From NCBI GenBank assembly GCA_013368375.1, contig JAACJP010000055.1, positions 124,001 to 188,000 of the forward strand: a stretch of 64,000 bases of DNA, read 5' to 3'. The stretch comes from Tricholomella constricta. Lineage: Eukaryota > Basidiomycota > Agaricomycetes > Agaricales > Lyophyllaceae. Shown in pieces: positions 43,876 to 56,140 of the stretch. Positions within the stretch are counted from its first letter, which is position 1; every line of letters begins with the position of its first letter. Below the pieces are notes generated by a model, which saw only the letters and a program-made list of their open reading frames with translations, was not told where the DNA came from and made no database searches. The translations under genes were made by a program, and so were the position numbers.

Positions 43876-44221
43876 TGTCACGACCGCCCCTAAACTCGCA
43901 ATCACTTACGCTTTCCCACGCACGCCCACCGTATATATGATGGCACCACTTCTTTTCAGACTCCTTACCTCGATATTACCTATTGTTAAGACTAGTTCTC
44001 GATTCTCGTTCTCGTTTCTCTCTCTCTCTCTCAATCTATTTGGCTTCACACCCGTATCACTTGAGCTCGTTCGTTCGAATCAGCCCCGGTGAACACCTCC
44101 GTCAACGCTCACGACCTCCGAATACTCCTTCGTAGGCCGTCTTCCTTGACGGACGTCAGGCCTGTCCGCTTCGGTGGTTCCAGAATAACTCTGTAACCGG
44201 CGTGCTACACAGGTCCTAACA
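43876..44221 (+). repeat. 5' LTR of the chromovirus
   Basis: 346 bp, TGTCACG ... CTAACA. It has a TATA box at 43932-43938, and the predicted start of R is ACCTCGATATTA at 43967-43978. U3 is therefore only about 91 bp. A CT dinucleotide run follows at about 44010-44030. Confidence 0.97.
43932..43938 (+). promoter_or_regulatory. TATA box of the chromovirus LTR
   Basis: TATATAT starts 35 nt before 43967, the 5' end predicted independently from complementarity to the primer-binding site. The same spacing (about 32 nt) is kept in the diverged LTR at 62971-63328. Confidence 0.75.
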
Positions 44222-44233
44222 TAATATCGAGGT
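44222..44233 (+). promoter_or_regulatory. Self-priming primer-binding site of the chromovirus
   Basis: TAATATCGAGGT immediately follows the 5' LTR and is the exact 12-nt complement of ACCTCGATATTA at 43967-43978 in the LTR. Tf1/sushi-type chromoviruses prime reverse transcription with the first 11 or so nt of their own RNA in this way. No tRNA-type TGG site is present. Confidence 0.85.
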
Positions 44234-44250
44234 CCTCCCACCCACCGGAC

Positions 44251-47115
44251 ATGTCCTCGACGATAGTGGAGCCTAACACAACCATCCGCTATCAAAACTT
44301 CGAAGGTCCCTCCTTCACTCAAAGGAGACCTTCACCACCACCCTTCGAAACCTCCCCTGCCTCAACAGGACCTCCGATGCAAGGGACTTTCGGATCCAAC
44401 AGGTCCAGGTTGGAACACCAGATCTTCCAACCTGGCCAACATGAGGGGGATTTTTCCTCAGTCAGTCAGGACCCACGACGACCCCTACCCCGAACCCCCT
44501 CAAACGTATTCAACCCCTCTTACCAACTCGCCACCCCCAACTATCCCCCCTTACCACCATCCGCAACGACCTCCGGACCTCCGCTTTCAAGTAACCAGAC
44601 TCCCGGATCGTACTACGAAAGGTTGAGGCACCCGGAGATGTTCCAGAGGAGGGATAGGGCACGAGAGGAGGGACAGGGACAGTTCGCTCGTCAACAAAAC
44701 CCCTTTCTACACGGTTCAGACCACGAAAGGATACTCTACGAACTCCGCATGACGCGAGAAGAGTTTTCACGACAAGCGCACGAGCTCCTAGTCGAAACCA
44801 TGGGGATGGATCATCAACCCCGAACACCGGAACAATGGGCCAACCTCGTGTTGTCGACCATGCAACTGCACGAAGCCCATCGATTACCCCCACAACTGAC
44901 GGTGTTGCTACAAATGGGGGGAAACGAAAGAAGGTTACGCGCTCTGGCTGGAGAAATCCAGACGTCCAACGAGGGAAGAAGATTCTCCGACCCCCAAAGC
45001 GCGGGACGTTCCTTCCACATGCCAATTCAGGAGCCCGTTCCCTCCAGAATCGAAACTAGATTCGAAGAACCTCCACGAGCGACAAGCACGGTCAATACGC
45101 AGACAGCTTCGGCTCTACTCAGGAGGATGAACCAAGGGAACGCTCCCCCCAGCCAAGAAGGGTTCGAACCCACCGTCACACCAGGGGCAGACGCTCGAAG
45201 AGCTCCGACGTTCGGGTTCTGGGGAGCCCACAACTTACAAAGAATCCCCGAAGAGAACCCCCCTGTCGAAGGACCGTTTTCCAGGCCAAATTCGGGTTTT
45301 CAGGGCCCACAGGGGACCTTCGCAAACCAAGAAGGAGTACCTCCGAGGGAACCTGAGAACATTCCCCTACCTCCGTCGGAACGGGGAATCCCAACGCCAC
45401 TGTCGTACGCCCACAGCTACGAACTACGCGAAGAAAACTCGGAAAGAAGAGAGGGAGCACCCCCTAGGGCACGAGAAGACTGGCGCCAAACACCACCTCA
45501 TCTGGCAAGTCAGAACAGGAGGTCACCACAAGGCCCACGCCCAATCTCCCCAAGAGAACGACGTGGAATCGGAGCGGACCCCGGCCCCGGTCAAAACGTA
45601 AACATCCTCGACGGAAGGCAAGGGACCCAACAACAATTCCCCCAGTTCGAACAATACAGAACTGGATACAACCCCGGACCAGCCCCACCCATACCCGGCG
45701 GACGACCGAACCCCCAGTACAACGGACCACCTCCACAGCCCCAACCCCCTCCGGGATCTTCGGGACCACCTACCCCGAGAGGAACTCAATGGGGAAACGG
45801 CCCCGGAGGACCAGGAGGGGGAGGAGGAGGTTATTGGGGAAACGGCCCCGGAGGAACAGGAGGTCCTGGAGGAGGGGGAGGTCACGGAGGATACGGACCA
45901 CCACAAGGACCAGGAGGCCCGGGAGGCCCCGGAGGTCCCGGAGGGGGAGGAGGAGGCCACGGAGGAGGAGGAGGAGGAGGCCCACCCGGAAATCCGGGAG
46001 GAGGCCAATTCGCAAACCCTCAACGACCCCCACCTCCACCGCAACAGCTCTTAGGCCCAAACCAAAACCTGACCCCGGAACAGTACCGACACCTCCTAAA
46101 CCTGGAATCGAAAATCGACATCAGGAAACCGGACCCCTTCACTGGAAAAGAACCGAGGAGATGGAAAACCTTCGTCACGGAATGCCTAGTAACGTTTCAA
46201 GCCAAGGCGATCACCTACGAACAGGATCACCTGAAGGTGTCATTCGCGAGCTCCTACTTAAAGGACGGAGCTATGGACTACTTTCGGCTGCAACTCACGT
46301 ACAACCCCCAACACCCAATGTTCACGAATTGGGAAGGATTCGTACACGAATTAGGATCACGCTTCGGAATACCGAACTCGAGAGTGGAAGCCGAGAACAA
46401 CATTTCGCGACTGAAAATGAAGGAATGGGAAAAGTTCACAGCATTCATCATCAAGTTCGAACAAGAAGCGTACGAAACAGGCTGGAACTGGGTAGCACTA
46501 CAGTTCACACTCCGGAAAGCGCTCCCCCAACGAATCCTTAACGTCCTGGCCATCGCACCAAGCCCCGAAACCTACGAAGGTTACCGAGATCTGGTCACCC
46601 AAATCGACCGGAGGTACTGGGAACATCGCATAGAAAATCCAGAGTCCTACAAACCCCTCTGGGCGAATAATGCGAACACCTCCAACACCTCCGCACGACC
46701 TCCGATGGGACCTTCGGCCGGACCCGCAAGCCGCACGACGCCGCAAACGGCTCAGGGGAACAAGAACGCACGCTTGAACGCCGAAAGTCATGATCAGGAC
46801 CCGGACTCAGGTAAGGAAGGTAAGGCGCAAGACCAAGAAATCGCATGGGATGACGAAGAGGCACTACAAGCCAACAACTTCGGATTCAAGAAGTCAACGC
46901 GCCCCTGGGTGAAGATCGATGAAGACGTAAAGCAACAACGAATTCGAGACAAGGCCTGCATCCTATGCGGTGACCTGGAACACTGGATGCGCGACTGCCC
47001 AACAGCAAACGCCATGGGCAGAGCCACCTACCTCATCGGCGACGACATCTTCGAATTCCATCACAAGACAGAAGAGGGAAACGCGGGGGCGATTCAGGAC
47101 TTACCCGGGCTCTGA
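44251..47115 (+). CDS. gag: Chromovirus Gag
   Basis: 954 aa, starting 17 nt after the primer-binding site. The N-terminal half is Pro/Arg/Gln-rich and probably disordered. A run of Gly-rich repeats (about residues 510-615, GGPGGPGG and GGGGG blocks) precedes the capsid-like retrotransposon gag domain at about residues 630-800 (FTGKEPRRWKTFV ... AMDYFRLQL ... FRSRFGI-like LGSRFGIPNSRVEAE ... LPQRILNVLA). A single zinc knuckle lies at about residues 908-921 (CILCGDLEHWMRDC, C-x2-C-x4-H-x4-C), which would bind element RNA. Gag builds the virus-like particle in the cytoplasm. The frame ends at TGA 47113-47115, and Pol overlaps it in the -1 frame. Confidence 0.93.
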   Translation: MSSTIVEPNTTIRYQNFEGPSFTQRRPSPPPFETSPASTGPPMQGTFGSNRSRLEHQIFQPGQHEGDFSSVSQDPRRPLPRTPSNVFNPSYQLATPNYPPLPPSATTSGPPLSSNQTPGSYYERLRHPEMFQRRDRAREEGQGQFARQQNPFLHGSDHERILYELRMTREEFSRQAHELLVETMGMDHQPRTPEQWANLVLSTMQLHEAHRLPPQLTVLLQMGGNERRLRALAGEIQTSNEGRRFSDPQSAGRSFHMPIQEPVPSRIETRFEEPPRATSTVNTQTASALLRRMNQGNAPPSQEGFEPTVTPGADARRAPTFGFWGAHNLQRIPEENPPVEGPFSRPNSGFQGPQGTFANQEGVPPREPENIPLPPSERGIPTPLSYAHSYELREENSERREGAPPRAREDWRQTPPHLASQNRRSPQGPRPISPRERRGIGADPGPGQNVNILDGRQGTQQQFPQFEQYRTGYNPGPAPPIPGGRPNPQYNGPPPQPQPPPGSSGPPTPRGTQWGNGPGGPGGGGGGYWGNGPGGTGGPGGGGGHGGYGPPQGPGGPGGPGGPGGGGGGHGGGGGGGPPGNPGGGQFANPQRPPPPPQQLLGPNQNLTPEQYRHLLNLESKIDIRKPDPFTGKEPRRWKTFVTECLVTFQAKAITYEQDHLKVSFASSYLKDGAMDYFRLQLTYNPQHPMFTNWEGFVHELGSRFGIPNSRVEAENNISRLKMKEWEKFTAFIIKFEQEAYETGWNWVALQFTLRKALPQRILNVLAIAPSPETYEGYRDLVTQIDRRYWEHRIENPESYKPLWANNANTSNTSARPPMGPSAGPASRTTPQTAQGNKNARLNAESHDQDPDSGKEGKAQDQEIAWDDEEALQANNFGFKKSTRPWVKIDEDVKQQRIRDKACILCGDLEHWMRDCPTANAMGRATYLIGDDIFEFHHKTEEGNAGAIQDLPGL

Positions 47116-47137
47116 ATCGCGAAGAGCTGAAACCGGG
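47076..47137 (+). promoter_or_regulatory. Candidate -1 frameshift site between gag and pol
   Basis: In Gag frame the sequence G-GGA-AAC (47076-47082) is a canonical X-XXY-YYZ slippery heptamer. A -1 slip there enters the pol frame, which is open from 46974. A hairpin spans the gag stop: CCCGG GCTCT (47104-47113) pairs with AGAGC ... CCGGG (47123-47137) around a 9-nt loop and a 5-nt bulge. The 21-nt spacer to the hairpin is longer than usual. Confidence 0.55.
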
Positions 47138-50100
47138 CCTTGACACTAAACTACGCGCAACGGCACTATCGACAACGGACACCCGCACTGTAACACTCTC
47201 CTCCCACTCGTCCCTGGCATTCTTAATACACCTCACGCCAAACGGAGGAGGAGAAAAACCCGAAAATACGCTTATCGACAGCGGAGCTACCGACAACTTC
47301 ATGGACTCCGACATGGCGACATCACGCGGGCTCCACCTTGAGGAGCTCAAACCCCCAATAAACCTTTGCCTATTTGATGGAGAACTCTCCGCATCGGGCA
47401 AAATCACACACTATACCACCAACGACGTCAAATTCAGTGACGGCACCACACAGAGGATAAGGTTCCTCCTTACGAAACTCCACGAGACAGCTGCGATAGT
47501 GTTGGGACTATCATGGTTGAAGGAGGTCAACCCCCGAATAAACTGGAAAGACCTCTGCATCACGCTACGAAGGGGGTCAAACGGCAAAATTGAAGGATCA
47601 CTACCGGACCTCCGAAGGAAAAAGGAAGTCGTCCCAACGACAACAGGCACAGGAGATCAACGCTTACCCTCGCGGTCAGCTCGCTCCTTCACGATCGAAG
47701 TACAGTTAGAAGGATCCTCAACGCGACTACGGGCACTTATCGATAGTGGAGCGGCGGGAAATTTCATAGCACAATCCTCGTGTACGAAACCGGAACCTCT
47801 CGCCAGCCCCATGACCCTACAACTGTTCGACGGAAACCCCAGCGGAGGTGGAGCCATTTCACACCATAGTCCCGAAACAATCAAACTTGAGAACGGACTA
47901 GAGTATAAGGTCGACCTCCTCATAACACAGTTACACCCGGCCACGCCACTAGTGCTCGGATTACCTTGGTTACGGGAAGCAAATCCGGACATCGACTGGC
48001 GGGAAATGTCCATGACCATGGAACAAGGGGCAGGACTAGCCGCGATATCGCTTTCCCAGAAGACGCAATGGAGAACCGTGACCCTTGAGGAGGAGGAAGA
48101 CGTCGAAGCTCCGAAACCAGCCAACCCCCTTTCGGAAAAACAACCCCTCCTCAGGGACCTCCTGGACGACGACAACGATCAGAACGACACCTCCAGCGAT
48201 AACATGAAGGAGGAAGACACTCGCCCAAACACCAACGAACCCCAAGAGGAAGTACCAACACCGACAACCGAGTCACCAGAGGAGATAACGGGACGGAAAC
48301 GCACCCGAAAACCACCCCCACCGAACTACTTCCCTCCAAACGTTCCGAGGTCCAAATTCAAACCCCACCCCAAACGGAAATCCGCAACGTCCCCAACGAC
48401 AGAAACACAGGAAGAAGAGGAAACCAACCCGGAAACGGAGGCCGAAGACGAAACGGGAGAGGGAGAAGAGGATGTCGAAACACAAAACATCCGCCTGATC
48501 GGAGCGGCGCCATTCGCGAACCTCATCAGGGACGGAGCCACAGCGTTCCAACTACACATCTCCCCCACCGAAAAGGAAGAACACCTCCATGCCAATAACA
48601 CCTCCGACGATGAACCCAAGCAACCAAAGACAGAAAGGGAAATCTTCGAGGAAGTCGTACCTCCGGAGTACAGGGACTTCGAAGACGTATTCTCAGCGGG
48701 CGAAGCGAAAACCATCCCCCCACACCGACCCTACGATCACACAGTGGAACTCGACGAAAACACTACCCCTCCCTTCGGAAAGATATACAACATGTCCGAA
48801 CTGGAGTTGAAAGCATTGAAGGATTACATCGACGAGATGCTCGGAAAAGGGTTCATCCGACCTTCGAGTTCGTCAGCGGGAGCTCCGGTACTGTTCGCAA
48901 AGAAGAAGGACGGATCACTCCGGCTATGCGTGGACTATAGAGGATTAAATCAGATCACCAAGAAGAACCGTTACCCTCTACCTCTGATCGGAGACCTCAT
49001 AGACCGACTTCAAAAAGCGAAAGTATACTCGAAGATCGACCTCCGAGTGGGCTACAACAACGTCCGCATAGCTCCGGGACACGAATGGAAGACAGCCTTC
49101 CGCACTCGTTATGGACTTTTCGAATACCTGGTAATGCCTTTCGGCATGACAAACTCACCCGCGACATTCCAACACTTCATGAACGACATCTTCCACGACA
49201 TGAACGACGTGTTCGTAGTGATCTACCTCGACGACATTCTGGTTTTCTCGGAGACCTTAGAGGAACATCACGGACACGTTCGGAAGGTCCTCGAGAGGCT
49301 CCGGAAACACAACCTTCATGCGAAACCGGAGAAATGCACGTTTCACACTACGGAGATCGAATACCTAGGCGTCATCGTATCCCCCGGCGGAGTAAAGATG
49401 GATCCAGGAAAAGTCGACGCGATCCGGAAGTGGCCTAGACCGACGAAGGTCAAGGAACTCCAATCTTTCCTAGGCTTTGCAAACTTCTATCGGCGGTTTA
49501 TCGACAATTACTCGGGCATAACGAAGAGGTTAAATAAACTCACGCAAAAGGACACAATCTGGAAATGGGATTCCGAATGCGAAGGAGTCTTCGAGCTATT
49601 GAAGAAAGCATTCTCCTCCGCACCCATCCTACGACACTTCGATCCTCAACTACCGGTGATACTAGAGTGCGATGCCTCCGACTTCGCCATAGCGGGGATC
49701 ATCTCCCAATTTGACGAGACATCACAAGACTTACGTCCGGTCGCCTTCTACGCGAGAACTATGATAGACGCGGAGCTCAACTACGACATCTATGACAAGG
49801 AGCTCCTAGCAATCGTGGAAGCGTTTAAACAATGGAGGGCCTACCTAGAGGGATCTCCCCACCGCATTCAAGTGTACTCCGACCACAACAACCTACAGTA
49901 CTTCTCCACGACCAAACAACTCAGTCGCAGACAAGCACGATGGTCGGAATGCCTGGCGAACTTCGACTTCCAGATAAACTATCGACCCGGAAGACTGGGA
50001 GCGAAGCCAGATGCCCTTACGCGAAGAGCGGACGTGTATCCAAAGAAGGGTTTCGAGCAGGATCACAACTCCTTCAACAACCGCATCATCATACCCCCCG

Positions 50101-51581
50101 AACGATTGAACGCGGCCCTAATACTGAACGAGGAGCTCCTACTAAACAATGTCCGGAACGCACCCCGAGACGATTTCTTCGAAAGGCATGCACCCAAACC
50201 CGGAGAAGAGACCTCCGCATTCTCCCTATCCGATGATCACAAACTACTCCTTCGCGACGGAAGAATCTATGTACCAGACCATTCCAGATTACGACTCGAC
50301 ATCCTACAGCAACACCACGATCACAAACTGCGCGGACATCCAGGGATCAGAAAGACCACACAACTCATCATGAGGACTTATTTCTGGCCCGGATTACGGA
50401 AGGAGGTCACTCGATACGTCCGAAGCTGTCATACCTGTAAAAGAGCGAAGGTCCCACGCCATAGCCCATACGGATTATTGAAACCACTCCAGATTGGGCG
50501 AAGGGCGTGGGCCTCCATATCCATGGACCACATCGTAGAATTACCGGAATCGGATGGGTACGACGCCATACTGGTCGTAGTATGCCGCCTCACCAAGCAA
50601 GGCATCTTCATACCCTGTCACACAACGGACACAGCAAAGGAACTTGCTCAGCTATTCTTGGAACATGTCTTCTCCAAGCACGGACTGCCCGATGACATCA
50701 TCTCCGACAGAGGCACCCTCTTCGTCTCCCGTTTCTGGAGCTCGCTATGTAAAGCCCTGGACATCAAATCGAACCTTTCGACCGCGTATCACCCGGAGAC
50801 CGACGGCCAGACGGAACGAGTAAATCAGACACTGGAACAATACCTCCGGATGTACGTGAACTATCTCCAGACCAACTGGCGAACACAGCTCCCTCTGGCG
50901 GAATTCACGTATAACAATACGACCCATTCGACCACGGGAGTTTCCCCTTTCTTTGCGAACAAGGGTTATCACCCCCGCTTGACAATCTCTATAAAAGATA
51001 TACCGGCGAAAGAAGCCCAGGAGGTAGCCGTAGACCTCCGGACCCTCCAGGACTACCTCCGCAAAGAAATAGAGATCGCAAATGAAGCTTACAAACGATT
51101 TGCAGATAAGAAACGGGACCCTACACCAGACTGGGCCGTAGGAACGGAAGTATGGCTCGACTGCCGGAACATCAAAACGAAACGCCCCTCCAAAAAGCTG
51201 GACCACCGGAGACTGGGCCCCTTCAAAATCCTGCAGAAGATCTCCAGCCACGCGTATCGACTGGAACTACCTCCGACACTGAAAGGGATTCACAATGTCT
51301 TCCACGTCAAGTTGCTCGAGAAGCACGAGCACGAGAATTTCCCCGGACGATCAAAACCACCTCCGCAGACGATCGAAGTCGAGGGCGAAGAACACTACGA
51401 AGTGGGACAGATCCTGGATTCCCGAACACGAGGGAAACACGTCCTCTACTTGGTACGATGGGAAGGGTACGGCCCCGAAGACGATACCTGGGAACCAGCG
51501 GAAAATATAGAAGGAGCAAAGGACATGGCCCTTAAATTCCACCGACTATTCCCAAGAAAACCACGGGACCCCACAATTTAA
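47118..51581 (+). CDS. pol: Chromovirus Pol: two proteases, RT, RNase H, integrase, chromodomain
   Basis: The pol frame is open from 46974; the first ATG (47301) lies 8 codons after the first protease Asp, so Pol is almost certainly made as a Gag-Pol fusion. Protease 1: LIDSGATDNF (Asp at 47277) to VLGLSWL (47499). Protease 2: LIDSGAAGNF (Asp at 47742) to VLGLPWL (47952). An acidic Pro/Thr linker runs to about 48560. RT: LCVDYRGLNQ, then YLDD at about 49220. RNase H: ECDASDFAIAG to YSDHNNL. Integrase: HH-CC finger (HHDHKLRGHPGI ... CHTCKRAK), Asp in MDHIVELP, Asp in SDRGTLF, Glu in TDGQTERVNQ. GPY/F-like LGPFKIL, then a chromodomain (YLVRWEGYGPEDDTWEP) at 51390-51560 with cage-type Trp/Tyr. 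All catalytic residues look intact. Confidence 0.96.
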   Translation, partial: REELKPGLDTKLRATALSTTDTRTVTLSSHSSLAFLIHLTPNGGGEKPENTLIDSGATDNFMDSDMATSRGLHLEELKPPINLCLFDGELSASGKITHYTTNDVKFSDGTTQRIRFLLTKLHETAAIVLGLSWLKEVNPRINWKDLCITLRRGSNGKIEGSLPDLRRKKEVVPTTTGTGDQRLPSRSARSFTIEVQLEGSSTRLRALIDSGAAGNFIAQSSCTKPEPLASPMTLQLFDGNPSGGGAISHHSPETIKLENGLEYKVDLLITQLHPATPLVLGLPWLREANPDIDWREMSMTMEQGAGLAAISLSQKTQWRTVTLEEEEDVEAPKPANPLSEKQPLLRDLLDDDNDQNDTSSDNMKEEDTRPNTNEPQEEVPTPTTESPEEITGRKRTRKPPPPNYFPPNVPRSKFKPHPKRKSATSPTTETQEEEETNPETEAEDETGEGEEDVETQNIRLIGAAPFANLIRDGATAFQLHISPTEKEEHLHANNTSDDEPKQPKTEREIFEEVVPPEYRDFEDVFSAGEAKTIPPHRPYDHTVELDENTTPPFGKIYNMSELELKALKDYIDEMLGKGFIRPSSSSAGAPVLFAKKKDGSLRLCVDYRGLNQITKKNRYPLPLIGDLIDRLQKAKVYSKIDLRVGYNNVRIAPGHEWKTAFRTRYGLFEYLVMPFGMTNSPATFQHFMNDIFHDMNDVFVVIYLDDILVFSETLEEHHGHVRKVLERLRKHNLHAKPEKCTFHTTEIEYLGVIVSPGGVKMDPGKVDAIRKWPRPTKVKELQSFLGFANFYRRFIDNYSGITKRLNKLTQKDTIWKWDSECEGVFELLKKAFSSAPILRHFDPQLPVILECDASDFAIAGIISQFDETSQDLRPVAFYARTMIDAELNYDIYDKELLAIVEAFKQWRAYLEGSPHRIQVYSDHNNLQYFSTTKQLSRRQARWSECLANFDFQINYRPGRLGAKPDALTRRADVYPKKGFEQDHNSFNNRIIIPPERLNAALILNEELLLNNVRNAPRDDFFERHAPKPGEETSAFSLSDDHKLLLRDGRIYVPDHSRLRLDILQQHHDHKLRGHPGIRKTTQLIMRTYFWPGLRKEVTRYVRSCHTCKRAKVPRHSPYGLLKPLQIGRRAWASISMDHIVELPESDGYDAILVVVCRLTKQGIFIPCHTTDTAKELAQLFLEHVFSKHGLPDDIISDRGTLFVSRFWSSLCKALDIKSNLSTAYHPETDGQTERVNQTLEQYLRMYVNYLQTNWRTQLPLAEFTYNNTTHSTTGVSPFFANKGYHPRLTISIKDIPAKEAQEVAVDLRTLQDYLRKEIEIANEAYKRFADKKRDPTPDWAVGTEVWLDCRNIKTKRPSKKLDHRRLGPFKILQKISSHAYRLELPPTLKGIHNVFHVKLLEKHEHENFPGRSKPPPQTIEVEGEEHYEVGQILDSRTRGKHVLYLVRWEGYGPEDDTWEPAENIEGAKDMALKFHRLFPRKPRDPTI

Positions 51582-51799
51582 AAAGACACTCGACGAACAC
51601 TCACGCACACCAACACATCACGAAAATTATGCAAATTTTCCCAAGACTAAACTCTACTATACGTATTCAACCACCAGCGCAACAATATCACACAAAGAAA
51701 AAATATCAAGAAAAAAAAAGAAAAACAAACGAACGAACTCCGGACTGTAAATATTCAGCAAAAAATAAACGCAGGCCAAGACGCTGCAGAAGGGACCGA

Positions 51800-53780
51800 C
51801 TACTCGATGCGACGACGCTTAGAGGGACCCGCACTGGAAGAAGAACCGCCCTCACGATCACCCCCCACCTCCCCAACCAACCCTATCTCCAGGGGACGCA
51901 TCGACGCAATGTCCTGCTCGTCGTCGGCGATCAACTGAGACTGAGATACGAACTCCGCCAAGGCACCTTCGCGAGTAAGAGAAGGGCGATGAAGAGCAAG
52001 GAAATGCTCGAACGCGGGGAACGGCGACTCGGGATCGACGGGGGGGCGGAACAGCTCCAAGAGCGAGTGCCGCTCAAGAATCTTGTGGGCGCCATCGATG
52101 ATACTTCGGACTGGCGACGCCTCCAACTCGACGAGGGCGCGACGCAAAGCACCATCCGCGATATACATATCGGACGCGAAGGCGGTACGCGCAAGGTCGA
52201 GGGCTACGAAAAAGTCTTAGAAACAAGAAGGAGAAAATGAAGGGAATCGAAACTCACCGTCAACGCGAGTACGGAGGTCCAAGGCGTGACCACGCCAATG
52301 ATCCCTAACCTCCTGAAGGTGGACAACGTGCCCCTGCAAACCAGCAACCTCATCCTGAAGAACCGACACCTCCATCCGAAGATCCTCAACCTCCGCGTCA
52401 CGATCGACGTCTACGACCTCCGAAGTCTGCGCCTGCAGATGAAGGAAACGCTCACGTTCATCGGTGAAGTCGGCCAATACGCCACGAAGATGGGACTTGG
52501 CACGTTGACCCTCGACCCGGAGAAGCTCGACTTGAACAGAGAGGGCCTGCGCGCGCGCGACCTCCTGGTCATAGAGACGTTGAAGACGGAGGTACTCCTC
52601 AGACGAGGGAGGGGAGGGAACCGGAGCAGCAGGGGGGGTCGAAATCAACATGGCGGGGGGGGAAGAGGGCAAAACCGGTGAAGAAGAGCCTGAGGAGGAT
52701 GACCCTTTTAAAAAGAGAGGCTCCGAAGGGCCGGCGATGGGGGAATCCGGAGACTCGGTGCGCACAATGGGCCCAGAACGACGAACGGGGACAAGCGAAA
52801 CCGAACTATTGCGGGAGGAGGAGGGAGAAGGGCCAGGGATAGGCGAAGAGCGCACCTCCTGAACGGACAAGCGCGCACCCCTACGGCCAACAGGCACAGA
52901 CTTTCGACCCTGGCCTCGCGTACCGCGAAAAAAGGCGCGAGGCGGGGGAGCACGAGGAGGAGGAACAACACCGGACCCTTCAGGGGATGTGGAAACAACA
53001 GGAAGAGGAGGGGGGAGCGGTAAACGCAAGGCGCGACGGATACTGGTAAAGGACATCGCAACGCCAGTGCGAGAGAAAGCAAAGCCTTCCGCACGAGAGC
53101 GCAACCACGCCAAGGGAATCCCCAACTGCCTAGCGGCCACTTCTAGGCCATGCTCCAACGAAAGCGAACACAGGGAGTGCGCCGCACGGCAGTCGACACA
53201 GGGCAGGGTCCCGCGAAGACGGACCTCCTGAAATCGACAGGACAGCCGACGCTCCCGACAACGATCACACTAACGAAGACCCCAAAATGGAATCAACAAT
53301 CGATCGCAGAAAAAGGGCAACACTTACCGGTGCATGCGTCTCACACCACGCCAAGGAAGGGGGAACCCGCACAGCGGTACGCAGGATCTCCGCCAACAGC
53401 TCATCCGTCAAAAGGGACCCCCAGGACAACGAAGTCGCCGCCGGACGTGACACAGGATCGCTGGCCGGTTCGAACTCAACCTCTGGAGTGGAGGAACGAG
53501 GACGCCGGATCTGTCGAGATCGAACCGGCAGACGGATGACCAGCCGATGATCGGGAATTGAGGGAGGTGCGGGAGAAGATTCGGGGACCGCCCCGACACT
53601 CCCATCGACAAGTGTGACGATCCCAGGAAGAGAGGACGTCGGGGAAACGGGTCGGGGTACGCCAAGGAACGCCACACGCGCCCGATCTTCGACGGACAGC
53701 TGCGCCAACTCGGAATCGCGCAAAATCGTGCTAGGGTCAACGGAGGCGGGGGCCGCGATATCGAGATTGAAGGACGACAT
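51800..53780 (-). CDS. Antisense spliced gene inside the chromovirus
   Basis: Three exons on the strand opposite gag-pol, 53780-53328, 53227-52258 and 52203-51800, join exactly in frame to 608 aa. Introns are 100 and 54 nt with GTAAGT...CAG and GTGAGT...TAG ends. Exon 1 (151 aa) contains RPRSSTPEVEFEPASDPVSR and AATSLSWGSLLTDELLAEIL (about residues 90-140). Exon 2 opens with C161-x2-C164-x3-H168-x2-C171, a possible zinc site, then a Ser/Pro-rich stretch and a coiled coil at about 371-473. Exon 3 (residues 475-608) ends in a basic KRRRIE, a possible nuclear signal. I know no family for it. The second chromovirus copy encodes the same exon 1 and splice donor (63548-63994). Function is unknown; a chromatin, silencing-suppressor or particle role would be speculation. 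Confidence 0.85.
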
Positions 53781-53886
53781 GAGCAGGACGAAGAGAAGAT
53801 GGAGGAGGAACAAACAACCTAAGTTTTTTCTCTTTCGATCTCCGAGATCCTCAAAAACACCCACAAGGACCTACAACCGAGACCGA

Positions 53887-53903
53887 CACGTGCCCCTCAC
53901 GTG
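53887..53903 (-). promoter_or_regulatory. Paired CACGTG boxes upstream of the antisense gene
   Basis: CACGTG occurs at 53887-53892 and 53898-53903, 11 bp apart, about 110-120 bp upstream of the antisense ATG at 53780 and outside the LTR. In the second copy the first box is kept (63427-63432) and the other is CACATG (63438-63443) at the same spacing. Such palindromes bind bHLH factors; use as the antisense promoter is inference. Confidence 0.45.
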
Positions 53904-53990
53904 ACCGCGCGCGACCCAGAAAGGAGAATAACCGCCACACTCCCCGTATTCGAACATTTCTTTTTCTGCGTCTCAGTGGCTCGACGCTTG

Positions 53991-54002
53991 AGAAGGGGGT
54001 AA
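53991..54002 (+). promoter_or_regulatory. Polypurine tract of the chromovirus
   Basis: AGAAGGGGGTAA lies directly before the 3' LTR. The counterpart in the second copy is GAGGAGGGGGTAA on the minus strand at 63329-63341. Confidence 0.85.
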
Positions 54003-54348
54003 TGTCACGACCGCCCCTAAACTCGCAATCACTTACGCTTTCCCACGCACGCCCACCGTATATATGATGGCACCACTTCTTTTCAGACTCCTTACCTCGA
54101 TATTACCTATTGTTAAGACTAGTTCTCGATTCTCGTTCTCGTTTCTCTCTCTCTCTCTCAATCTATTTGGCTTCACACCCGTATCACTTGAGCTCGTTCG
54201 TTCGAATCAGCCCCGGTGAACACCTCCGTCAACGCTCACGACCTCCGAATACTCCTTCGTAGGCCGTCTTCCTTGACGGACGTCAGGCCTGTCCGCTTCG
54301 GTGGTTCCAGAATAACTCTGTAACCGGCGTGCTACACAGGTCCTAACA
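54003..54348 (+). repeat. 3' LTR of the chromovirus
   Basis: 346 bp; I find no difference from 43876-44221 when the two are read side by side. Confidence 0.97.
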
Positions 54349-54353
54349 CCGCC

Positions 54354-56140
54354 CTGGAGGCTCTGAAAAAAATCTTGAAGCCACCGCGAAAAAAGGGTCC
54401 TGGCTACCAGCATCATGATCTCGATGAGTTGACTCACAGTCGGCTCGAGGCCATGAGGAAATTCTTGTGGAAGTACGTCAGTGGAGGAGAGACTACCCGG
54501 TGGGCAAAATCTTCCCTTGAGACTGCGCAGGACCACGAAAGGGGACCACACCATGCACGGTTGCTTCGGGAATGGACGCGTGCCTTTCTCGCAGATCACA
54601 AGGACCTCCCCATCAATTTATATGGGACCTGGAAAACGTCAATGCTTGACGATGAAGGTCTCCAACAGGGTATCTACTTACATTTGCAGACCTTGGGGCC
54701 CTATGTTCGGGCACAGGACCTCGTGGATTTCATGAAGAAACCCGAAACCATGGCCAAATTCAACTTAAAAAAACCAATCAGCCTCGCAACCGCTCAGCGA
54801 TGGATGAAGCGGCTCGGTTATCGGTGGACGGTGACACCTACCGGGCAATATGTTGACGGGCACGAGCGAGCGGATGTTGTCAACTACCGACAAAAAAAAT
54901 TTCTGCCCCGTTGGATGAGCATTGAAGAGCGTACTCGACGTTGGAAGGCCGGGTTTAAGGAGGCGGAGGATGTCGAAGAGATGCGCCCAATCCACCGCCG
55001 GATTGTTGTCTGGTTCCACGACGAGTCCACTTTCTATGCAAATGACCGTCGAAGGCAGCGTTGGGTGCACAAGGATGAGAATGCAGTTCCGCGGGCCAAA
55101 GGTGAAGGAGCTTCGCTGATGGTTGCGGATTTTGTTTCGGCAGACTACGGATGGTTGGCATCACCAGACAAAACTGAGCGAGCTCGAATCTTGTTCAAAG
55201 CGGGGAAGAACCGGGAAGGATATTTCACAAATGACGATACACTCAAACACGCAACAACGGCGATGGATATTCTGACAAAATATTACCCGAACGAAGAACA
55301 TATCCTAGTTTTTGACAACGCGACGACCACTCATACCAAGCGATCCGACTCATCCCTTTCCGCCCGACACATGCCAAAAGGTACCAAAGCCGTTGGAGAA
55401 TTCTGGGGCGCCACAGTACCGGTTCTCGATTCAGATGGGAAGCAAGTGTATTTACGCGATGAAACTGGGAAGCTCACCCGAAAGCCAGCGACACAGAAAA
55501 TTCGGATGGACGATGCGACATTTCCTGATGGGACGCCACAATCATTATACTTCCCGGATGACCACGCTGTTCATCCCGGCTGCTTTAAGGGGATGGCTGT
55601 GTTACTCCAGGAGCGAGGACTTCTGGCAGAATCGAAGCTTCGATTCGAGTGCCCGAACTTCAAGTGCAAGCCTGGTGTCACAACCTGCTGTTGCCGCCGC
55701 GTCCTGTATTCTCAGCCAGATTTTGTGGCTGTGGAGTCTCTCCTTGAAACCCATTGTCACTCTCGGGGGTTTGAGGTCCTGTTCTTGCCGAAATTCCATT
55801 GTGAGCTTAACTTTATTGAGCAATGCTGGGGTTTTGCAAAGCGAAAGTATCGCGAGTTTCCGGCGTCTTCGAAGGAAGCTGATCTCATGAAAAATGTACT
55901 GGCTGCACTTGAAATGGTACCTCTCGAGACCATGCGCAGGTGAGTTCACTTCATGAGTCATGGCCTTTGCATTGATTCAGCCTCAGGTACTCTTATCGGG
56001 CCCAGCGGTTCATGCATGCTTATCACGAGGGCTTGAGTGGAAAAGATGCAGCATGGGCATGCAAAAAGTATCGGGGCCATCGAGTAATTCCTGCTTCGCT
56101 TCTTGCTCATTTTGATAAGGTAAATACTATTGTATCATAG
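54354..56140 (+). pseudogene. DDE transposase gene, 3' part with the catalytic domain
   Basis: Exon 54354-55939, a 47-nt intron, then exon 55987-56140 ending at TAG. It continues the frame of 43345-43875. After a helical N-terminal region with an HTH-like ISLATAQRWMKRLGYRW, the catalytic set is visible: Asp in FHDESTFYAND (about 55020), Asp in LVFDNATTTH (about 55314) and Glu in CELNFIEQCW (about 55818). NFIEQCW and FDNATT recall the IS630/Tc1/mariner group, but the second Asp to Glu distance is about 168 residues rather than 34-35. The gap holds a Cys cluster (CPNFKCKPGVTTCCCRR). The C-terminal RYSYRAQRFMHAYHEGLSG tail after the intron is typical of the agaricomycete version of this family. 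Terminal repeats were not found. Confidence 0.85.

Follow-up and report, generated by a model that had tools for sequence, protein, structure and literature searches.

A putative antisense gene linked to the U3 region in a chromovirus of the mushroom Tricholomella constricta

The window, the whole 64,000-nucleotide stretch of DNA analysed here, comes from the 44-Mb assembly of Tricholomella constricta (Agaricales, Lyophyllaceae) and contains a complete LTR retrotransposon spanning 43876–54348 (Table 1). The two LTRs, of 346 bp each, differ at no position and the element is flanked on each side by CCGCC, a 5-bp target-site duplication; owing to this identity and the matching flanks, the insertion is recent. 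The LTRs begin with TG and end with CA, and a polypurine tract, GAGAAGGGGGTAA, lies immediately before 54003. These features, the 5-bp duplication and a pol in which a Pfam scan finds the order protease, reverse transcriptase, RNase H and integrase followed by a C-terminal chromodomain are those of a chromovirus (Ty3/gypsy). Pfam matches in pol include RVT_1 (E = 9.3e-40) and Chromo (E = 1.9e-13), as well as RNase H and integrase.

In self-priming elements of the Tf1/sushi type, the primer-binding site can pair with the 5′ terminus of the RNA that the element itself produces. Here the putative site is a perfect 12-nt complement of 43967–43978 and 54094–54105, and its complement in the LTR begins about 35 nt past a TATATA at 54059. 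Judged by its position and sequence, it is likely to be a self-priming signal of this type, marking the U3/R border. Beginning inside the 3′ LTR is a 539-aa open frame (54324–55943) with a DDE_3 domain (PF13358, E = 8.7e-12), and the chromovirus seems to have landed in or beside a DNA transposon.

Table 1 Features of the element, in window coordinates.
Feature	Position	Strand	Remarks
5′ LTR, 346 bp	43876..44221	+	U3 43876–43966; R start ~43967, inferred from self-priming match
Likely self-priming primer-binding site, TAATATCGAGGT	44222..44233	+	Directly 3′ of 5′ LTR
gag open frame, 972 aa between stops	44197..47115	+	CCHC knuckle CILCGDLEHWMRDC near end
pol open frame, 1535 aa	46974..51581	+	Protease, RT, RNase H, integrase, chromodomain
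Putative recombination cassette (pol 3′ end, antisense gene, PPT, U3)	51000..54093	.	Pol-side gradient ~51000–51600
Antisense gene exon 3, 404 nt	51800..52203	-	Conserved C-terminal part, KRRRIE basic tail
Antisense gene intron 2, 54 nt, GTGAGT..TCGTAG	52204..52257	-	
Antisense gene exon 2, 1012 nt	52258..53269	-	Zn2Cys6-type pattern, Pro/Ser-rich linker, helical coiled-coil part
Antisense gene intron 1, 58 nt, GTAAGT..TTAG	53270..53327	-	Acceptor corrected
Antisense gene exon 1, 453 nt, begins ATG	53328..53780	-	
Upstream region, putative promoter/5′ UTR, 222 bp	53781..54002	-	Conserved blocks
3′ LTR	54003..54348	+	U3 54003–54093; R start ~54094

The antisense gene and its copies

Lying tail-to-tail with pol, between it and the 3′ LTR, is a gene on the opposite strand whose three exons together encode 622 aa. 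The original prediction had placed a gene of this spliced type at this site, with exons of 453, 970 and 404 nt joined in frame to a 608-aa product, an arrangement that is reproduced as written. Its second intron (52257–52204) is retained, as is the intron 1 donor at 53327, but the acceptor at 53228, which gave an intron of 100 nt, lies 42 nt too far. The acceptor used here reads ..TTCGTTAG|TGTGATCGT, and the 42 nt between the two candidate sites encode CDRCRERRLSCRFQ. This stretch keeps its cysteines and frame, with some substitutions, in the 12 other loci read, and is also found in both public T. constricta proteins (P0001 and P0002). Because the 42 nt are coding, conserved across subfamilies and present in both public proteins, intron 1 is assigned its shorter length; the longer form would remove 14 conserved residues holding half of the cysteine cluster, and a 608-aa product would thus have its zinc cluster cut in two.

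The region upstream of the start codon contains, in the window, the palindrome GATCTCCGAGATC at 53837–53849, the core of which, TCTCCGAGATCCTC, is kept in all six aligned sequences. Further upstream are CACGTG at 53887 and TCACGTGA at 53897 (the boxes spanning 53887–53904), both present in five of the six, with locus L053 differing in TCACGTGA. These three blocks are candidate control sites.

A DNA search gave 42 rows. A protein search, which scored the best 71 of 319 protein candidates, gave 105, and joining these yielded 70 places with the gene. At 68 of these the C-terminal part of pol is convergent with it within 1.5 kb, and the remaining two (on C25 and C30) run into contig ends; at none of the 70, drawn from those best 71 of 319 candidates, is a pol in the same orientation found within 3 kb. 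An antisense ORF between pol and the 3′ LTR that is kept in many copies corresponds to the class termed aORF-3R. The orientation test used 110 of at least 150 pol rows (left out were 39 at 43–48% identity and one 85% fragment on C10). No antisense row accompanied 42 of the 110, the protein search having scored the best 71 of 319 candidates; the gene is present, whole or damaged, in all four loci fetched from among these 42 (L065, L066, L067 and L070), and two more, C1:861012 and C20:462533, coincide with loci already given by the DNA search (L048 and L050).

For comparison of the copies, 72 loci were reduced to the 63 spanning the region and, after removal of 17 repeated places and addition of the window, to 47 distinct places, some of which could represent alleles or duplicates of a single insertion. 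Conservation in other copies, by which the original prediction was to be judged, extends to the splice sites and to the frame. Both introns are at the same positions, with varying lengths, in all 12 loci inspected besides the window, an agreement well beyond chance. Across the 47 places, GT..TAG is kept at 46 for intron 1 (58–73 nt, L066 left out) and at all 47 for intron 2 (52–60 nt), the sole exception being L066, where a larger deletion took away part of intron 1. An intact frame is present at 27 of the 47, comprising 26 identified by alignment and L060, whose start is misplaced in the alignment but whose frame is whole; as the other 20 lack one, these copies do not establish a requirement in cis. 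In this orientation both introns could be spliced solely from an antisense transcript, and the point made in the original prediction, that an intron placed in antisense can outlast retrotransposition, fits the absence of any intronless copy among the 47 places. In each of two loci on contig C1, L022 and L026, a stretch of about 140 nt from exon 1 is repeated, seen as overlapping rows of the DNA search, and the two loci are probably copies of one another.

Intact spliced ORFs of 622–635 aa occur in five subfamilies (the window, L055, L033, L059 and L060), which served as the sample for estimates of selection. Between subfamilies dS is 0.42–0.84, and dN/dS is 0.20–0.32 in all ten pairs. Over the same ten pairs the ratio is 0.095–0.165 for residues 100–225, 0.117–0.168 for exon 3, 0.14–0.37 for the helical part, 0.23–0.44 for exon 1 and 0.35–0.57 for the Pro/Ser-rich linker. 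When six pairs were read in all frames, the antisense frame contained no stops and the other five contained 10–46 stop-bearing codons. In this frame control, one sense frame has a dN/dS of 0.29–0.42, yet 18–24 stop-bearing codons per comparison, and we infer that its low ratio mirrors the antisense codon frame. These comparisons indicate that the antisense gene is under purifying selection at the protein level. We regard it as a gene of the retrotransposon. Codon-level selection and the conserved introns together point to a gene that makes a protein; its transcript would be spliced at two introns.

The same genome holds a second abundant chromovirus lineage, 63–64% identical in the reverse transcriptase and 43–48% in the C-terminal part of pol, with a frame mostly of 1379 aa and at least 39 rows at 43–48% among the matches listed. 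No relative of the antisense gene follows pol at the two loci of this lineage that were read (L068 and L069). In L068 (C5:542500–545500) the antisense-gene search returned chance rows only (E = 0.88–0.99), and a long antisense frame there holds the RNase H domain of another retroelement. Copies of the second lineage lying 5870 bp apart on C17 and C2 suggest a tandem arrangement.

The predicted 622-residue protein

All seven cysteines of the window protein (residues 146, 152, 155, 162, 175, 178 and 185) fall within a single block of 40 residues, and none of them varies among the five subfamily proteins. The last six (residues 152–185) fit the spacing of a Zn2Cys6 cluster, the PROSITE form of which is C-x2-C-x6-C-x5-12-C-x2-C-x6-8-C; this pattern is matched by all five subfamily proteins and by none of 200000 shuffles. 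In the decayed copies L053 and L054, CDHC stands in place of CDRC with the cysteines untouched. The CCHC group named in the original prediction is not borne out, as the knuckle spacing C-x2-C-x4-H-x4-C is absent and the histidine is replaced by glutamine in L033.

Best among the Pfam matches of a 72-aa piece is Zn_clus (PF00172, E = 0.0023), at 18.5 bits for the fragment and 11.1 bits for the full protein, scores that fall below the cut-off of 21; the alignment of the fragment is in a shifted register. The UniRef name of P0002 is 'Zn(2)-C6 fungal-type domain'. A PDB sequence search gave nothing for the whole of P0002; with the 72-aa piece it gave three weak matches, headed by the zinc-cluster activator PUT3, which is not significant (E = 0.68). 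Beyond the cluster, no transcription-factor domain is among the Pfam rows, and no bZIP domain, which an HBZ-type regulator would have, appears in the Pfam scan up to an E-value of 1. In common with Gal4/Put3-type Zn(II)2Cys6 factors, the protein has the six-cysteine spacing, basic residues between cysteines 2 and 3 and a helical part downstream; unlike them, it has a cluster that scores beneath the Pfam threshold, is not N-terminal and is preceded by an additional invariant pair, Cys146 and His149.

An AlphaFold model of P0002, built on a two-row alignment, is poor (mean pLDDT of 44.5, and below 50 over most of the cluster region). Long helices are predicted at residues 372–431 and 442–499, with block pLDDT of about 57–77, the rest of the model being unusable. 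The coiled coil of the original prediction survives as these long predicted helices, of moderate confidence, but heptad support for it is modest, with 57% hydrophobic residues at a/d positions. The basic tail that had also been described is conserved, PSKRRRI[ED] ending all five subfamily proteins.

Searches with the whole protein and with residues 484–600 and 100–225 of P0002 matched only P0001 and P0002, both from T. constricta. The whole-protein search scored the best 7988 candidates by shared words; taken together, the searches covered annotated proteins and this assembly. Annotated proteomes often mask transposon genes, and absence of the antisense gene from other species is therefore not to be concluded. 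The product looks like a Zn2Cys6-type protein and is probably a DNA-binding regulator.

Linkage of the gene to the polypurine tract and U3

Aligned with locus L055, the window is 97–100% identical in pol up to about position 51000, 65–90% identical over the antisense gene (150-bp bins) and again 97–100% identical over most of R-U5 (0.987 in a second comparison). Identities were correlated over the 1081 pairs from the 47 places, which are not independent of one another. Among these non-independent pairs, exon identity follows U3 identity closely (r = 0.90–0.95) and R-U5 identity weakly (r = 0.16–0.20). With a pair called discordant when identity is at least 0.95 in one part and below 0.90 in the other, gene and U3 are discordant in none of the 1081 pairs in either direction; gene and R-U5 are discordant in 249 with a match in the gene only and in 166 with the reverse, the same dependence among pairs applying to these counts.

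The correlation with the gene flips between the intervals 54051–54110 and 54111–54170, at the start of R as defined by self-priming, and dips to 0.64–0.70 at 53931–54020, a strongly conserved segment surrounding the polypurine tract. Towards pol, the association with the gene climbs from r = 0.19 (50900–51019) to r = 0.98 (51620–51739). Relative to the window, reverse transcriptase pieces of L059 have a dS of 0.22 and a dN of 0.002, and those of L060 a dS of 0.05 and a dN of 0.001; dS in the antisense gene is 0.69 for L059 and 0.84 for L060. From these comparisons, the gene and U3 have been exchanged as a unit among backbones. The gene, the polypurine tract and U3 make up one recombining cassette that moves between R-U5/gag/pol backbones and whose right-hand limit is the U3/R border. 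A break at R is what first-strand transfer during reverse transcription would be expected to leave, and since this transfer and closeness both predict linkage with U3, the linkage alone is no proof of functional pairing.

At L061 (C49:2100–5300), the antisense gene is L055-like and lies beside a pol C-terminus scoring only 63%, although the DNA immediately preceding this gene shares 95% identity with the window. The mismatch suggests a frameshift or a further mosaic.

Known antisense genes and possible functions

Plant and Boty-like fungal elements with an antisense gene in the stretch from pol to the 3′ LTR are already known. In Botrytis cinerea, the antisense gene of Boty is brtn (Zhao et al. 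2011, as cited in PMC7264820 and PMC8365987), and Boty-like gag-pol has a CHROMO domain (PMC4227169), so the statement in the original prediction that no such gene had been described in a fungal chromovirus does not hold. The brtn gene resembles the present one in being antisense, in lying between pol and the 3′ LTR and in belonging to a fungal, CHROMO-bearing element; its host is an ascomycete, whereas the present gene resides in an Agaricales mushroom. In a survey of fungal and plant chromoviruses, an additional ORF of unknown function appears in a figure legend (PMC2864245), and a term search for antisense in a survey of fungal LTR elements found no mention (PMC3248453).

The aORF-3R genes of the plant elements Retand and Grande (TRP28 and GENE23) share the location and orientation of the present gene and are kept in most copies. 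The antisense TRP28 genes of Retand have predicted DNA binding (PMC11963269) and GENE23 is nuclear, properties akin to our reading of the present protein. They differ in belonging to plant elements, Retand being of a non-chromovirus lineage, and in having TRP28 or SMC-type domains; introns are not mentioned in the term-searched text of PMC7264820 and PMC11963269. According to a review, functions of antisense genes in this location are not known (PMC7264820). In HTLV, antisense HBZ is spliced and APH-3/4 suppress transcription from the 5′ LTR; as predicted for the gene described here, HBZ/APH involve spliced antisense transcripts and are nuclear regulators (PMC10186651), but they are retroviral proteins, of bZIP or other kinds, whose expression is driven from the 3′ LTR, and no sequence relation is claimed. 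Neither a spliced Zn2Cys6-type antisense gene nor a gene–U3 cassette in a fungal Ty3 element was found in the accessible portions of the open-licence literature. The original finding holds in corrected form; its conservation is stronger than the letters of one copy could show, and its novelty weaker than stated; new here is the combination of gene, polypurine tract and U3 promoter as one recombining cassette.

The likeliest reading of those considered, resting on features of the sequence, is that the protein works in the nucleus as a DNA-binding regulator of the promoter region of its own element, and as an explanation of the whole we consider it an evenly balanced proposition. The gene would have a promoter to itself, located in the 222 bp that precede the 3′ LTR (and in U3). 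Its product would dimerise via the helical part, enter the nucleus by means of the KRRR tail and bind DNA through the Zn2Cys6-type cluster, the most likely target being the element's own U3 and antisense-promoter region, and would tune transcription of gag-pol in the manner of the antisense HBZ/APH proteins of HTLV. With U3 built from the 3′ end of the RNA at reverse transcription, regulator and promoter would travel together, while R-U5, gag and pol would be exchanged between co-replicating elements. A tentative extension, in our view rather less probable, is that each version of the protein recognises its own linked U3 and upstream sequence, forming a swappable regulator–promoter cassette.

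In related elements, import and targeting functions are supplied by gag and a chromodomain-bearing pol, which speaks against an accessory replication factor that would bind element cDNA or RNA and help the integration complex to enter the nucleus or to select its target. The basic tail conserved in all five subfamily proteins would suit such a factor, an accessory role for antisense ORFs has been proposed in the plant review, and GENE23 of Grande is nuclear (PMC7264820); however, the present gene co-segregates with U3 and not with upstream pol, though closeness may account for this, and we regard the accessory role as unlikely. Slightly lower still we place a sequence-specific anti-silencing factor resembling VANC, which would bind noncoding parts of its own family and remove host silencing. 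Divergent proteins on near-identical backbones, tied to divergent noncoding DNA, form a pattern that resembles the divergence of VANC proteins and targets (PMC5735166), but no tandem target repeats are visible by eye in the 222-bp region or the U3 alignment, and the linkage has a mechanical explanation.

That the gene was captured from the host in recent times, or is an ORF that arose by chance, as the lack of a homologue outside T. constricta in protein searches might imply, is very improbable given its convergent placement at 68 of 70 places (two at contig ends; best 71 of 319 candidates), a dS between subfamilies too high for a recent gain, and the conserved introns and frame. Least probable is that the antisense RNA alone matters, through dsRNA or interference with sense transcription, with the open frame incidental: antisense transcripts of LTR elements can have regulatory roles (PMC7264820), but third-position bias and a dN/dS of 0.20–0.32 fall in exactly the spliced frame, all other frames contain stops and the cysteines are invariant, a codon-level constraint by which RNA as the sole function is already contradicted.

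The predicted protein has the cysteine pattern of a common fungal transcription-factor class, and its gene is passed on together with the promoter of the element as one unit. The presence of several divergent regulator/U3 pairs on nearly one backbone in one genome makes possible a direct cross-test of whether such genes regulate their own element. If each regulator indeed acts on its linked U3, recombination at the U3/R border would let one gag-pol backbone change its transcriptional control in one step, and the same swap could let that backbone escape regulation by the host or by sibling elements.
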